Assembly: GCA_024743275.1 (NCBI GenBank)
Contig: JANSWW010000009.1
Location: forward strand, 62,001-126,000
Direction: 5' to 3'
DNA length: 64,000 nt
DNA from: Alphaproteobacteria bacterium
Lineage (GTDB): Bacteria; Pseudomonadota; Alphaproteobacteria; JANSWW01
Position numbers and translations under genes: made by a program
Notes under the pieces: model-generated
The model's database searches: none
What the model was told of the DNA's origin: nothing
The model's input: the letters and a program-made list of their open reading frames with translations, nothing else
Part shown: positions 5,835 to 39,445 of the stretch, one piece after another
Layout of the letters: the number at the start of each line of letters is the position of its first letter
Numbering within the stretch: the stretch's first letter is position 1

Positions 5835-7451
<1,617 letters not shown>

Positions 7452-7485
7452 CCGATCCCGGACTTGACAGGCAGCAAGTAAGGAC

Positions 7486-7512
7486 GGGGTCTCGGTCACG
7501 CATCGGGACCCC
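7486..7512 (+). terminator. hairpin between ctaD and ctaB
   Basis: GGGGTC at 7486-7491 pairs with GACCCC at 7507-7512, with possible extra CG pairs inside. No T tract follows. It is more likely a transcript-processing or attenuation element, tuning ctaB relative to ctaCD, than a full terminator. Confidence 0.35.
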
Positions 7513-7538
7513 TTCCGGTATCAGGATCCGAGAAGCAG

Positions 7539-8540
7539 ATGCGTACGACTTTGGAAACCAACCCGCTGACCGCGACCGCCGGCATGGACGGAAACGGTAT
7601 GGCGGCCCTCAAACCGGGCATGATCCCGGCCTATGACGGCTCGGTGAAGGATTGGTTCCAACTGCTCAAACCGCGGGTGATGTATCTCGTGATCTTCACC
7701 GCGTTCACCGGCATGGTGATGGCGCCGGGCGACCTTCATCCGGTCCTCGCCGCGATCGCGATCCTGGCCATCTCGGTCGGGGCGGGTGCCTCCGGCGCGA
7801 TCAACATGTGGTACGACCGCGATATCGACGCGGTGATGCGCCGGACCAAGGGCCGTCCGCTGCCGGCGGGCAAGATCTCGCACGAGGACGCTCTGATCTT
7901 CGGCGTGGTGCTGTCCCTTCTGTCGGTGATGGTGATGGGGCTGGCGATCAACTGGACCGCCGCCCTGCTGCTCGCCGGGACCATCGGTTTCTATGTCTTC
8001 ATCTACACCATGTGGCTGAAGCGCCGGACGCCGCAGAACATCGTCATCGGCGGGGCCGCCGGCGCCTTTCCCCCGATGATCGGCTGGGCCGCCGTCACCG
8101 GCGATGTCAGCCTCGTCTCGGTGGTGCTTTTCCTGATCATCTTCATGTGGACCCCGCCCCATTTCTGGGCGCTGTCGCTCTACACCAACACCGACTACAC
8201 AACCGCGAAGATCCCGATGCTCCCCGTGGTGGCGGGCGAGACCGAGACCAAGCGGCAGATGATGATCTATTCGGTGTTGCTCGCCCCTCTCGGCGCGGCG
8301 CCGTGGCTGCTCGGCGCCACCACTGCGTTTTATGGTGTGGCCGCGAGTGTCCTTGGCGCGCTGTTCCTGCTCTCGACGGTGCATGTCTGGCGGTCGGCGA
8401 ACGGCTCGACCGAGCAGACCCGCCGGGCCAAGCAGCTCTTCGCCTATTCGATCCTCTATCTCTTCCTGATCTTCACCTTCCTCCTCCTGGATGTCTGGGT
8501 CGGGGAGGGCGTGATCGCGGCCATCACGGGGGTGCTATGA
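7539..8540 (+). CDS. ctaB: protoheme IX farnesyltransferase
   Basis: The 333-residue membrane protein is a UbiA-superfamily prenyltransferase that farnesylates haem b to haem O, the precursor of the haem A used by CtaD. The first Asp-rich motif NMWYDRDID is near residues 89-97, followed by RTKGRPLP, and there are about nine hydrophobic helices. The N-terminus is about 30 residues longer than the shortest homologues, so an internal start is possible. Its TGA overlaps the next gene's ATG (ATGA at 8537-8540), showing translational coupling to coxF. Confidence 0.96.
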
Positions 8541-31225: not shown

Positions 31226-31763
31226 GGGCCGGGCGCGCTCCTCTCTTTGATCTGGCGGGGTTTTCCTAGGAACGGGGCGATAGCACGGGGGCGCCTTCGC
31301 TGCAACGGCGGGGAGTTGGGGTATAGTCGGAAAATAACTGTTGATCTTAGTGTGTAAGTTACTGTACTTTTCCAGTCAGCGAGAGGGCGGCAACCGTCCT
31401 GCACCATGATCGGGCCAAAGACAGATATCTCGTCGGAGCAGCCCCTCCAGGCTCGATCAACCCCCAGCCCCACCGCCGGTGTTTGGCGACGGCTTCCCTC
31501 TCGCGCCCCCCTCATTGGGCATTCGCTCATCTCTCAAAGATGGTTAGTGCTCCACTCCGCCCCGCTCCGCACCGCCGGATGCGGGGTTTTCTTTGGAGCG
31601 CCCGGGCGAGTGTCCATTTCTTGATAGCCCGAGATAAAGTGCGGGCTTGTACGAGGCGGCATATTGCGTTGAAAAACACCGCTTAATGCTATATCTTGTT
31701 TGTAGCCCTGCTGAGGTCGAAGCTTAACGTTCCACGTTTAGTATTAGTAGTCCTCGGTGGGGC
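31226..31763. other. intergenic region between rfbC and the DUF3800 gene
   Basis: No protein gene is supported in these 538 bases. The left part must contain the leftward rfb promoter. A moderate rightward promoter-like pair, TTGATC (31341-31346) and TACTTT (31365-31370), lies upstream of a strong rightward terminator at 31560-31594, so a small RNA of about 220 bases could be encoded between them. From about 31620 the base composition becomes visibly AT-rich, marking the start of the foreign-looking DUF3800 segment. Confidence 0.5.
31560..31594 (+). terminator. strong orphan rho-independent terminator
   Basis: CCCCGC (31560-31565) pairs with GCGGGG (31581-31586) and TCCG (31566-31569) with CGGA (31576-31579), with a single bulged T, a six-base loop and a TTTTCTTT tail. 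This is one of the clearest intrinsic terminators in the window, yet no rightward gene precedes it. It may end an undescribed small RNA or be left over from a lost gene. Confidence 0.7.
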
Positions 31764-32663
31764 TTAACTCTCATCCTCAGTTGACGTTTTAGCCTTGAAA
31801 AGCCAATGGCGGTATGGGTGTCGCCATCGATTTGAATAGTCTCCATCGTGCCCTGTAGTTGCGCCTATATTGAAGCGTGGATAAATTTTCTGGATTTCTT
31901 TGTTGATCGCTTTGTATACACGCTCTTTCGCGCGGGTTCTCTTGCCCCTCACTCTTTGCCCATTTGGCTTCTCAAGATTTAGCTTGTTTAGCCGAAAATA
32001 CATTGACCCAAGGATAATATCTAATCCTTGTAGTATATTGTGACTCTTTGAATTAATGTTTGCAATTTCAGATTTAGGGATAGATATATTTTTTCCATAG
32101 AGGAGAGATGTGTTTTCGATATTTGAAATGTATCTGCGAAATTCATTCAGTTTTTTTGTTGAGTGTGGAACTTCATCGAGTAGTACGCTAAAGTACACTT
32201 TGTCTAAAGAATTTGGATTGGCATACCGTATCCCAAATGCATGTTTTATCATCTGGTAATAGAGTAAAAAGTATTGATTTTCAATTTGCTCTTCGGTCAG
32301 TGTTGGTTTCGTGTGAATGTTTTGAGTAAACATAATTCGAACTCGTAGGCGGTTTGTTCTAATGAAAGAAAAATAAAATTGGATAAATTCAATATATTTT
32401 TCTTCGTATTGTTCGGTAATTTTCGTCCATTTTAATTCTTTGAAAAAGTTCAGCTCTTCCTTTTTCTCTTTTAACAGGTGCTCAATCAATTCTCGATCTT
32501 CGGCTTTTAGCAATACGCCACCGTAAAAGTTCGAGAAAAGTGCCCCTTTTTTTGAAGACTCATCACAGAAAATAACGTAACGCCGTTTTGCCATAGGTAG
32601 CTCGCAGAAGGCACAGTATGAACTGGGAAGAGTAGAGTGTCCGACGCAAACTGTGCAACCCAT
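31764..32663 (-). CDS. DUF3800 protein with possible N-terminal zinc ribbon
   Basis: The product (299 residues from ATG 32663) contains the DUF3800 hallmark YVIFCDESSKKG followed by SNFYGGVLL. DUF3800 proteins are predicted to have an RNase H-like fold and are often found among phage or defence genes, but their activity is not established. Before it lies C3-x2-C6-x10-C17-x2-C20, which resembles a zinc ribbon; if ATG 32594 is the start, this part is lost. The DNA is strikingly AT-rich and Lys/Asn/Ile-rich compared with its neighbours, indicating horizontal acquisition. It lies 40 bases after rnhA on the same strand. No mobility gene adjoins it. Confidence 0.8.
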   Translation of the reverse strand: MGCTVCVGHSTLPSSYCAFCELPMAKRRYVIFCDESSKKGALFSNFYGGVLLKAEDRELIEHLLKEKKEELNFFKELKWTKITEQYEEKYIEFIQFYFSFIRTNRLRVRIMFTQNIHTKPTLTEEQIENQYFLLYYQMIKHAFGIRYANPNSLDKVYFSVLLDEVPHSTKKLNEFRRYISNIENTSLLYGKNISIPKSEIANINSKSHNILQGLDIILGSMYFRLNKLNLEKPNGQRVRGKRTRAKERVYKAINKEIQKIYPRFNIGATTGHDGDYSNRWRHPYRHWLFKAKTSTEDES

Positions 32664-32703
32664 GGGGGTTCGTTCGTCTGCGCCTTTCTCCAGAATAGGT
32701 GGC

Positions 32704-33147
32704 CTACGCCTCCGGCAGGATGCCCTTGACCGCGTCGGTCGCCAGTTTGTCGACCCGCTCGTTCTCGGTGTGCCCGGCATGGCCCTTGACCCAGATCCAT
32801 TCGATGTCGTGGCGCTTCGCGGCTTCGTCGAGTCGCTCCCACAGGTCCTGATTCTTCACCGGCTTCTTGGCCGCCGTCCGCCAGCCGTTCTTTTTCCAGC
32901 CATGGAGCCATTTGGTGATGCCGTCGCGGACATAGGTCGAATCCGTATGGAGCGCGATGCTGAGCGGCCGTTTAAGGCTTTCCAGCGCCATGATGGCGGC
33001 CATCAGCTCCATGCGGTTGTTGGTCGTGTCGTCCTCATGCCCGGCGAGTTCCTTCTCGACGCCGCGCCAGCGCAACAGCACGCCCCACCCGCCGGGACCC
33101 GGATTACCGGAGCACGCCCCGTCCGTGAAGGCTTCCACATCGGCCAT
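32704..33147 (-). CDS. rnhA: ribonuclease HI
   Basis: The 147-residue enzyme degrades RNA in RNA-DNA hybrids. The acidic catalytic set is visible: Asp9 in FTDGACSGN, Glu47 in NRMELMA, Asp69 in HTDSTYV and the C-terminal Asp in NERVDKLA. The basic protrusion with [13 protein letters not shown] is also present. The length is normal. It lies 19 bases downstream of ispH and is probably co-transcribed with it. Confidence 0.97.
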
Positions 33148-33166
33148 GGAGGTGTCCTGGACTTCG

Positions 33167-36452: not shown

Positions 36453-37910
36453 TCATATATATCGCCGATAGTCACTGCTAACAGGCTGCCCCTCTTTAAT
36501 ATACTTCAACACTTCTCCAACTTTTCGTGCTGCCCGAATGGGTATCGGAAGTCGCTGATTCATCTGCGTGGAATTCCAATTTATCTTTGTTAGGGACAAT
36601 ACTTCCTCGGCGATTTGCGCGACCGTGCTGTCGCAACTTTCATGGGGGCAGAGCAGCAAAGGCCTTGGATCATAAAGACCTGGATAAGTCCCATAGTACG
36701 GGATGCTCCCATTCGTGTAGAGCATTCCCTTTCCTCCAAGGTTTACAAATGTTCCGCGCAATACGGGGTAATTTCCATCCCGCAAAATCTTGACAGAGTA
36801 AGATTCCTGAACCCAGACCAGATCCCGCATTTCTGTTCCGGATTCCTCAAGAGCCTTTAAGATTCCTTCTGCTTCCTCATCTCTAAATCGAGAGGTCTTC
36901 AATACGATCACGCGCGCAGGAAAATGCTTATGGTGGGTCTTGTACGCCGCTAGAACCTGGGTCATCAGTTCATAGGCGTCGTTGAAAGTCATGAATGGAT
37001 GCCGACCACGAATTTCGGTCTGTGCACGCTTGCCTTTTAGAATGAACCCACGACCACGTTCGTCGAACATTTGGGCAGCACTCGTGAAGAGTTGTTGACC
37101 GCCAGCTTCCCGATAAAAACTGATCCCAACGTAACAGGCAGCATACTCATCCTCTCGCGGCAACCTTCTCCATGGAACGCGACCAGAGCCTTTGTAATAA
37201 AGGGTAGTTAGAAGATTCCAACTTCTATCGGCTATGTCTTGTATATCGCGATCGCGGCTCTCTTTTACCTTCTGGGGGATTGACGCTTTTTCATCAATCA
37301 CATCTTCCCAAACGATTTGTATCGGGAAGCTAATGTCCATCGTTTTCGCTTTAAGAAGGCCGCGAAAATTTGGAGCATCGGACCCCGCACTATCTTCCTT
37401 CTCGGTCGTGCTCTTGGAATCGACCTTCGCGTTCCAAACCCGTTCAATTAGCGAACCGGGAAGCGCTACGATCGTTACCTGTGGCCGATCGCCGCTATCA
37501 TCAAGCGATTGCAACAGTGCAACGATCTCATCGACAGCCATCTCGACCGCTTTTTCGTGATTAGGCTCCTTGATGATCTTATCGATCTTGCTTTGGGTCA
37601 GCGCACCGGTAGCGCCTTCCGAAATTTCAAACCGACAGCGAAACGGGTTTTGGTTGCCGAGCCCTGGAAAATCAGGGTGCAGATTAGGGTGCTTCTCGGT
37701 CTTGCCCTTAACGCCTGATGCAATCGCTGAAACGTAATTCTTGGTGCTTTCAACTGTCTTGGCGCTCCCAATGACACCAACCCGGATTACCTCCCCAAGA
37801 GGGGGTTGCAGGGGACCGGCCTCAACGAGACCAAGTCGAGGGTCTGGATGGTGATGCTGATCGCCAAATTCCAATTCCGGTTCTTCAAATATCTTGCTCT
37901 CGAACTCCAT
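36453..37910 (-). CDS. short prokaryotic Argonaute (MID-PIWI), catalytically inactive
   Basis: The 485-residue product is a short Argonaute lacking N and PAZ domains. A MID-type region (about 140-250) ends in [18 protein letters not shown], as in short Argonautes. The PIWI domain follows to the C-terminus and closes with the diagnostic LTKINWNST (440-448) and [17 protein letters not shown]. The first catalytic Asp of active PIWI domains is Ser264 here (YVGISFY), and the last position reads Asn in INWNS, so slicer activity is not expected; it should act as a guide-loaded sensor. ATG 37910 overlaps the effector stop as TGATG, implying a stoichiometric complex with the APAZ protein upstream. Confidence 0.93.
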
Positions 37911-39232
37911 CAAACTGCGAGCCTTTCCTGAATTTCGGGATCCTCAGGCTGTTTCTTAGTTTCTCCCCAAACGTCTTCTGGGACGCGCGTATCGAGAGAC
38001 ACTTGAGGTGGGACCTCAAACCTCAGGCATGCTTCGAGTTCAGAATCTTGTGCAAACAGATCGTCCTTCGCGCGATCGCTCTGCGTCAGAAATCGGTGCC
38101 ACATTATGACCTGCCCGCGCAGCGAAGCGCTGTTGTCCAAGCGCTTCTTGCCAGCGAGCAGTGCTTGAGGGTATGGATGTGGCGTGAAGCCGTTAGTCGT
38201 GAAAAAGTAGGTGGGTGTCACAACCAGAAACCATTGATCGTTCAGGAGTTCGAAACGCGGCACAAAGGCGTGGTGCCGTACAAAGTCAACTCGCCCTTCT
38301 TCTTTTTTGCTGTGTGTTACGTTTACGACGTCAGCGTGCGTCTTTTTGCGGGACGCCTCGTAGTGAAACCGACGAGGTGTGTTCTTCTCCTGAGCACGGA
38401 AATAAAGCAGCTTACGTTCTTTCTCCCAATTGAGATCCTGCTGAAACTGATGCCGTAGGGTTTGCCGCAGCAGGAAAGCGAAATTGTTTTGCTCGCTCAG
38501 GTCTTCATGAAATGCGAGATAGTCAGTCTCGACGGCTTCGACTTGGTCGAGATCAACAATTTCTCGGCAAGACGAGGTGCTCGGGTCATGAAATGACCAA
38601 AACGAACCTCCATTGATCACCCAATCGAAGCGAGCTGGTTCATCGGCATCAAGCAGAAACGCGGCAGCCTTACGTCCCGAATGCGGCGTTGACGCGACAA
38701 AAATCTCTTTAGGCATGATGATTGGCAGGATATTGACCAGTGCCTCCTCACCGCCGCCAAGAGAAGGTACGTAGTAACCGAATCCCGCCTTGGGAACAGT
38801 AAGGGCGGCCAGTCTATCAACGGAATTTCGATCAAGCACATCTCGTTGCTTGTCGAATTGGAGACGGCGATCTCCTTCGGAAATCCCTCTTGGCACTTCT
38901 TGCCAGAAGAATGTTTCGTCAGACTTTCGATATAGTACGATTATGACCGGCAGGTTTGATCCGCGCCAATAGTTGAGATCCTTGCGCCGGAGCAGATAGC
39001 TGAATCCGGTTTCATTTTCGCCCACATAGGTTCCGGACGCGGTCGCTTTCACTTGGACTGCAATCATCCGTGCCAGTGGGCTCCCGTCCTCGATCACTTC
39101 GGCAATACCGTCTATCCCGGCTTCGAGGCGCGAACGACCGTCAAATTGAAACCCGATATTGAGGAACCTACCTCGAACTGCGGCTTCGCCGATTTCACCT
39201 AGAAATTGATTTTGTGTGATTCTCTTGGGCAT
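37910..39232 (-). CDS. DREN-APAZ effector: DUF4365 nuclease fused to APAZ domain
   Basis: The 440-residue product has an N-terminal DUF4365/PD-(D/E)XK nuclease domain (about 1-150): [10 protein letters not shown] with Glu16, AGIDGIAEV with Asp41, and the Q60-V-K62 core lysine, followed by the family stretch [16 protein letters not shown]. The rest (about 180-440) is the position and size of an APAZ domain, which pairs with short Argonautes in place of N and PAZ. This is the architecture of the SPARDA effector, reported to become a collateral DNA/RNA nuclease when the Argonaute finds target DNA. ATG 39232 gives a conserved-looking start; upstream frame runs to 39283. No strong Shine-Dalgarno is visible. 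The Argonaute gene overlaps by one base. Confidence 0.9.
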
Positions 39233-39254
39233 TATGGCAGTATAGAACAACTGC

Positions 39255-39277
39255 GGAACAGTTCCCACGGAATTATA
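39255..39277 (-). promoter_or_regulatory. possible SPARDA promoter -10 and palindromic operator
   Basis: On the minus strand a perfect TATAAT (39277-39272) lies about 40 bases before the effector ATG, although no convincing -35 box is seen. Just downstream, where transcription would start, is a perfect palindrome GGAAC-T-GTTCC (39265-39255). A repressor site here is possible but unproven. Confidence 0.35.
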
Positions 39278-39445
39278 GGTCAAAGGACGGTTATCCTGAG
39301 GAGAATTGGTCCGAAGTTATGGTCGAGGTTGAGCTAACAGAAAGCGCAACCCAACTGCACAGGCGTTTGTTGAGACGGAGCGCCGGAACGTTTCGATTGG
39401 CTCGTATGAGCTAACAAGCGGGGATTTGCACAAGGGGGCGGATAT

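Follow-up and report, generated by a model that had tools for sequence, protein, structure and literature searches.

In type III toxin-antitoxin systems, the RNA antitoxin consists of direct repeats located upstream in the toxin operon. Type 2 RNases H carry an adjacent Asp-Glu in their DEAGRG motif. As for the DUF3800 RNAs, for which Weinberg et al. 2017 is said to be the source, the family DUF3800-VIII (RF03075) and its link to DUF3800 genes are already catalogued in Rfam. A pairing of protein and RNA has been studied in Clostridioides difficile, where the phage-borne protein AbiF goes together with a conserved structured RNA, RCd22; the published passages on this system describe a toxic protein that is neutralised by its ncRNA through direct binding (PMC12373285). 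The passages on DUF3800 proteins attribute to them an RNase H fold, to which one of the two sources adds a catalytic rearrangement, and report them from some V-A2 (Cas12a2) and VI-F CRISPR loci (PMC10910872, PMC12669027). No function for the DUF3800 RNAs is stated in the passages on 'DUF3800' that were consulted, including those of these two sources.

The locus described here lies in a window of 64,000 nucleotides, i.e., the whole stretch of DNA that was analysed. It combines a DUF3800 gene with a DUF3800-VIII RNA that ends, on the opposite strand, on the stop codon of this gene (Table 1). Since Rfam already lists this RNA family together with its DUF3800 link, the locus adds a member to a known pairing. 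What is added beyond RF03075 is a strand test, lineage-specific promoters, the geometry around the stop codon, and carriers of the IS1595 and type I restriction kinds. In this pair, an RNase-HII-like gene has at its end a small RNA with a predicted promoter of its own, and the whole is found on mobile elements and in defence loci.

The reading that we favour, with a probability of about one half, is that the locus would be a two-part mobile cassette, made of the DUF3800 protein and of a convergent structured RNA of about 65 nt at its 3' end, and that this RNA-restrained nuclease would serve addiction or defence. The protein would bind the RNA through a conserved core, in which an invariant GAA faces UAG, and the RNA would hold the RNase-HII-like nuclease in check, akin to an RNA antitoxin. 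The nuclease would be freed by phage attack or by loss of the RNA, and the cassette would act as an addiction system or as a defence of the abortive infection type. As far as the passages published on it go, AbiF with its ncRNA is the closest tested parallel to the DUF3800/RNA pair, both associating a protein with a conserved structured RNA. However, AbiF is an Abi_2 family protein and is not RNase-H-like, while the RNA of the window is convergent and the toxicity and binding proposed here are predictions. The arrangement is not that of type III toxin-antitoxin systems either, the RNA being single, downstream and on the opposite strand.

The first-pass annotation of this DNA had singled out an AT-rich DUF3800 gene lying directly downstream of rnhA, and both points are borne out. 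GC content is 36.7% in the gene body, counted from ATG 32594, as against 64.7% over the whole window and 64.4% in rnhA, and the sole other clearly AT-richer stretch of the window is found at 36.5-39.2 kb. The rnhA gene (Pfam RNase_H) lies directly upstream on the same strand and ends at 32704. The identity of the gene is likewise confirmed by a PF12686 (DUF3800) match of 24.8 bits, above the curated cut-off of 21. Taken as a whole, this annotation was right about a DUF3800 gene of foreign composition, an RNase-H-like fold and phage and defence contexts, whereas its zinc ribbon did not hold and the RNA partner escaped it.

Table 1. Coordinates of the features of the locus, of the Argonaute pair of the window and of the transposons that carry relatives of the gene.
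Feature	Position	Strand	Details and basis
DUF3800 gene, predicted RNase-HII-like fold	31764..32594	-	start ATG 32594 (MAKRRYVIFCDES...), stop codon 31766-31764; PF12686, PDC-M04A, AF2
In-frame 5' stretch containing CxxC-x10-CxxC; leader or promoter region, most likely not translated	32595..32663	-	homologous loci, AF2
DUF3800-VIII small RNA (RF03075)	31702..31766	+	cmscan; 3-nt overlap with DUF3800 stop codon
Predicted sigma-70-type promoter in front of the small RNA (TTGAAA, 17-nt spacer, TATCTT)	31669..31697	+	predicted site; homologues share the elements and their offset
Short Argonaute and DUF4365 effector with APAZ-like part	36453-37913, 37910-39283	-	PADLOC pAgo_I E 1.6e-173, Aga_REase E 3e-177
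IS1595-type transposons with a DUF3800 passenger gene	L010 5288-8048; L012 5408-7906; L015 5132-8017		

The RNA of the window belongs to RF03075, which it matches over the full model (positions 1-64 of 64) with 50.2 bits (gathering threshold 40.2, E 6.4e-8). It is the sole match in a permissive Rfam scan of 31400-33150, and this 65-nt RNA is the only copy in the genome of the window. Applied at its gathering threshold, the Rfam model recovers a DUF3800-VIII RNA from 39 of 59 homologous loci, in each case just behind the gene and on the other strand. A covariance model (R1) built from 40 DUF3800-VIII RNAs finds it in 52 of these 59 loci and in the window; 39 of the 52 are among the 40 sequences used to build the model and 13 are independent gains. 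The RNA occurs once per locus and always on the opposite strand. Its distance from the stop codon ranges from -24 nt (inside) to +19 nt (beyond) in the 49 loci measured, and it keeps this place and orientation across many phyla and phages.

No R1 match was found in two plasmid relatives of 28% identity (L005 and L006), in a gene fragment (L051), in L012, or in L040, L049 and L056, where the contig ends close to the end of the gene; in the genome of L040, another contig has an RNA at its end and could be either contiguous with the gene or separate from it. Another Rfam class of DUF3800 RNA was considered behind the distant gene of the Citrobacter plasmid (L005), and dismissed, as a permissive Rfam scan of this locus gave no convincing match to any DUF3800 RNA. 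The gap between this plasmid gene and a facing gene for a toxin of the PemK/MazF family (4284-4396 of L005) looks structured and may hold a different RNA.

Both the pairing pattern and the strand bias point to an RNA that is maintained as a fold. In a MAFFT alignment of the 40 RNAs, 93.0% of the pair cells are standard versus 72.9% in shuffles, two-sided changes occur at 13 of 17 pairs, the covariation score reaches 0.642 versus 0.258, and the pairing signal is lost when the partners are slid by 1-3 columns. At the 21 consensus pairs of the 40 RNAs, G-U and A-C cells number 88 versus 13, and still 44 versus 12 on a structure derived from the other strand. The minimum free energy is lower on the RNA strand than on the opposite one for 37 of the 40. 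The invariant GAA that faces UAG lies between two helices and is likely to be a contact with the protein. Compensatory changes, invariant unpaired residues and strand-specific G-U pairs therefore indicate selection on the folded RNA.

These same data weigh on the proposal of a type I-like antisense role, in which the RNA would regulate the DUF3800 mRNA by pairing with its 3' end and the fold would be secondary. The proposal would explain why 3' ends are convergent and overlap in many loci. However, it accounts poorly for compensatory changes, for unpaired residues that are invariant across phyla and for a strand-specific G-U bias; moreover, in 21 of 49 loci the RNA lies short of the stop codon (gap of 0 or more), where an overlap with the 3' UTR of the mRNA is still possible. 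We consider the antisense role improbable. A REP-like DNA element was also discarded, there being one RNA copy in the genome of the window and one in most genomes searched.

The RNA has its own predicted promoter, which is lineage-specific in the relatives. The window has TTGAAA-17-TATCTT, separated from the RNA by 4 nt; it is the only promoter-like site in 31500-32800, an interval for which shuffles average 2.6, so this single site proves little. Among the 36 non-Bacteroidota loci, joint -35/-10 elements stand at the expected place in 17 (mean of 0.67 and maximum of 5 of 36 in shuffles), and in none in the reverse direction. As the joint sigma-70 pattern is absent in 19 of the 36, the case for an own promoter therefore rests on enrichment. 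The Bacteroidota group comprises 17 loci, assigned from record titles or, for L059 and L060, by similarity; three of them (L003, L004, L060) are near-identical. Seven of these 17 share, at one offset, TAnnTTTG, the promoter motif of Bacteroidota type. In consecutive 8-nt blocks behind the RNA, the T fraction starts at 0.58 and 0.57 and is 0.17-0.37 from the third block on. This T-rich tail is seen on the RNA strand only, not on the opposite strand, and it is poor in the RNA of the window. A guide RNA of the kind used by TnpB or CRISPR systems was rejected, with no variable segment between promoter and tail.

The next reading after that of the restrained nuclease would make the RNA an activating cofactor, or the scaffold of a ribonucleoprotein nuclease that attacks foreign nucleic acid. 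An RNase H fold and a constant RNA structure would suit such a role, and the published passages on DUF3800 proteins of CRISPR loci suggest that these take part in interference or in the biogenesis or degradation of crRNA (PMC10910872, PMC12669027). However, the promoter and the T tail bracket the conserved RNA so closely that no room is left for a variable guide, and the loci with a broken gene and a retained RNA bring no positive support. An activating RNA is a possibility that we regard as less likely than a restraining one.

For the preferred reading, in which the RNA would restrain the nuclease, retention of the two partners gives a mixed picture. The gene is broken and the RNA kept in four loci (L020, L046, L048 and L050), though frameshifts in MAGs can be assembly errors. 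Two orphan RNAs have no detected gene (L096 and L097), the core letters of that of L096 being in decay. An RNA that outlives its protein suits a harmful protein with a protective RNA, but also plain neutral decay. L012 runs counter to strict addiction, with a near-complete DUF3800 frame and no RNA, but the 3' end there is altered next to an IS1595 transposase. In keeping with a unit of two parts, distances among the RNAs track those among the proteins (Mantel r 0.61, reached by 0 of 2000 permutations; 35 sequences present in both alignments).

Two side observations concern RNAs found apart from the gene. The orphan DUF3800-VIII-like RNA of L097 (1377-1440) lies about 500 nt from a pair that looks, by eye, like HigB/HigA (1923-2728). 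The Bacillus subtilis control genome contains an RF03075 match (coordinates not given) and no match to PF12686, phrog_3732 or PDC-M04A; this match is either an orphan RNA or a chance match.

The RNase H-like nature predicted for DUF3800 proteins agrees with the structural model. The AF2 model of the window protein, computed from a 46-row alignment, has a pLDDT of 93.8. Its best fold match in the PDB is 1eke, an RNase HII (VIA-align: Z 9.7, 169 residues, 3.6 A; Foldseek: E 3.3e-4). The first 17 rows of the VIA-align list are all RNases HII, H2 or HIII (Z 9.7 to 7.1), followed by Argonaute PIWI (about Z 6) and RNase H1 (about Z 5.5). A search of the PDB by sequence gave no match for the DUF3800 protein. 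Residues D34, E35, E76, D163 and D215 (P0001 numbering) are invariant in an alignment of 46 proteins, namely that of the window and 45 of the 49 stop-free homologues (alignment A4, from which L012, L025, L045 and L056 were omitted). The adjacent D34-E35, together with D163, D215 and E76, suits an RNase-HII-like active site, the mapping of residues being putative.

The modelled fold thus resembles that of RNase HII, and a nuclease role is predicted. Like the type 2 RNases H (RNase HII, H2A and HIII), the protein has an adjacent Asp-Glu on the first strand, but it shares only about 11% identity with them and has extra helices and an RNA partner of its own. In the same way, the TPR-DUF3800 protein of Cas12a2 loci has, according to the passages on it, a DUF3800 domain with an RNase H fold and noted links to ncRNAs (PMC10910872), whereas a single DUF3800 domain fills the window protein, which has no TPR match in Pfam and beside whose gene no CRISPR gene was noticed. 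The protein also matches PADLOC PDC-M04A (E 1.4e-18), component A of PDC-M04, which is for PADLOC a candidate defence system only. No PDC-M04 partner was found among the best 25 of 455 families for 147 proteins neighbouring homologues (set A5; of the 169 ORFs called as neighbours, 20 were left out as short and 2 as very long), and the literature search found no mention of the name 'PDC-M04'.

It had been proposed that the protein starts with a zinc ribbon. The minus-strand frame opened by ATG 32663 stops at 31764 (299 aa, N-terminus MGCTVCVGHSTLPSSYCAFCELPMAKRRYVIFCDESSKKG) and does contain C3-x2-C6-x10-C17-x2-C20 as letters. However, comparison with homologues and structure prediction, the two checks suggested at the time, both go against its translation. 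A CxxC in the open frame upstream is absent from all 57 homologous loci compared, and in 45 of the 57 the frame is closed, by a stop or the contig end, at most 33 residues upstream of the DES aspartate, which leaves no room for the extension (L045 and L050, both without N-terminus, are omitted from this count). The relatives start at the MAKRRYVIFCDES methionine: the starts of the Riemerella phage protein (MAGFYIFCDES) and of the Citrobacter plasmid protein (MKYIIYADEA) both align to the internal methionine (ATG 32594) of the window protein. The first-pass annotation had named such an outcome as one that would overturn the ribbon. In a second AF2 model, that of the extended protein (alignment A6: 32 homologues and the window), the ordered core begins at residue 27 and the extension, modelled without zinc and without homologue rows, has a pLDDT of about 50 and no secondary structure. 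The GC content of the 69-nt extension (52.2%) is intermediate between that of the gene body, which it does not resemble, and those of the window and rnhA.

The spacing of the cysteines had been judged hard to explain unless the stretch is translated. Two CxxC pairs are indeed rare: shuffling the 23-codon extension yields them in 141 of 104,173 stop-free cases (0.14%). Yet the double CxxC is compatible with chance, because the stretch was picked from the whole window and the pattern is not conserved. ATG 32594 is most likely the true start, as predicted from these comparisons. The CxxC stretch is sequence that relatives do not translate, most likely a leader or promoter region, and would play no part in the mechanism. 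In spite of an open frame and a rare pattern, we therefore give hardly any credit to the idea that translation from ATG 32663 adds an N-terminal zinc ribbon to the DUF3800 nuclease. More generally, what looks like a protein motif in an AT-rich island can have its origin in sequence that relatives leave untranslated.

Relatives of the gene were collected from phages (14 records), plasmids (2 records), genomes (45 loci) and viral contigs (10 loci). The viral scan gave 0 relatives with a single sequence and 10 with a 3-row alignment (A2). Among 96 genomes searched for close relatives, including that of the window, only the latter and one weak match were found. The phage and defence contexts that the first-pass annotation named for the family were recovered, with relatives in phages, on plasmids and next to type I restriction genes. 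The match in OQ791282 (Shigella phage Henu10) has the same coordinates (7192-7989) and identity as that in Riemerella phage PT15, and the host label of this record may be wrong.

Type I restriction genes directly adjoin the DUF3800 gene in 5 of 49 loci (a raw count with no background rate). The gene is located between hsdM and hsdS in L016, after hsdR in L017, before hsdM in L033, after hsdS in L042 and before hsdR in L045. A convergent IS1595 transposase is found just downstream in 5 of 49 loci, again as a raw count with no background rate. In L010, L012 and L015, terminal inverted repeats enclose the whole group, and the transposon ends show an exact 8-bp duplication (CTTTTTAT) in L010 and a 10-bp duplication in L015. 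The RNA is also aboard the transposons of L010 and L015. No terminal repeats or transposase were found near the window gene, which does not appear to be such a passenger. In L010, L011, L012 and L047, a short, divergently oriented ORF that carries a D-K-F-R motif (DKFRDLARQLEADED-like) is found ahead of the gene.

The mobility of the gene, and the occurrence of RNase-H-like folds in transposases, could suggest a mobile cassette that has the hairpin as its DNA end or as a bidirectional terminator, and in which DUF3800 would be the recombinase recognising this hairpin. However, the visible mobile ends are the IS1595 inverted repeats, well outside the gene/RNA pair, while one hairpin per locus and genome is the rule and the promoters are lineage-specific; this explanation is very improbable. 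Returning to the RNA-restrained nuclease, it can be tentatively proposed that DUF3800-VIII cassettes are mobile RNA-guarded nucleases, shipped by phages and IS1595 elements, which would form a second line in type I restriction operons. If so, the toxin would fire when phages disable the host or its restriction system, and the other Rfam classes of DUF3800 RNA would stand for parallel pairs of one and the same system.

The window contains another AT-richer insertion, 4 kb from the DUF3800 gene, which encodes the Argonaute/DUF4365 pair (about 50-52% GC) next to a gene that we take, by eye, to be gcvH. According to the published passages on them, SPARDA-like defence systems are matched by such a pair of an Argonaute and a protein of the DUF4365-APAZ type (PMC12205087, PMC10810196).
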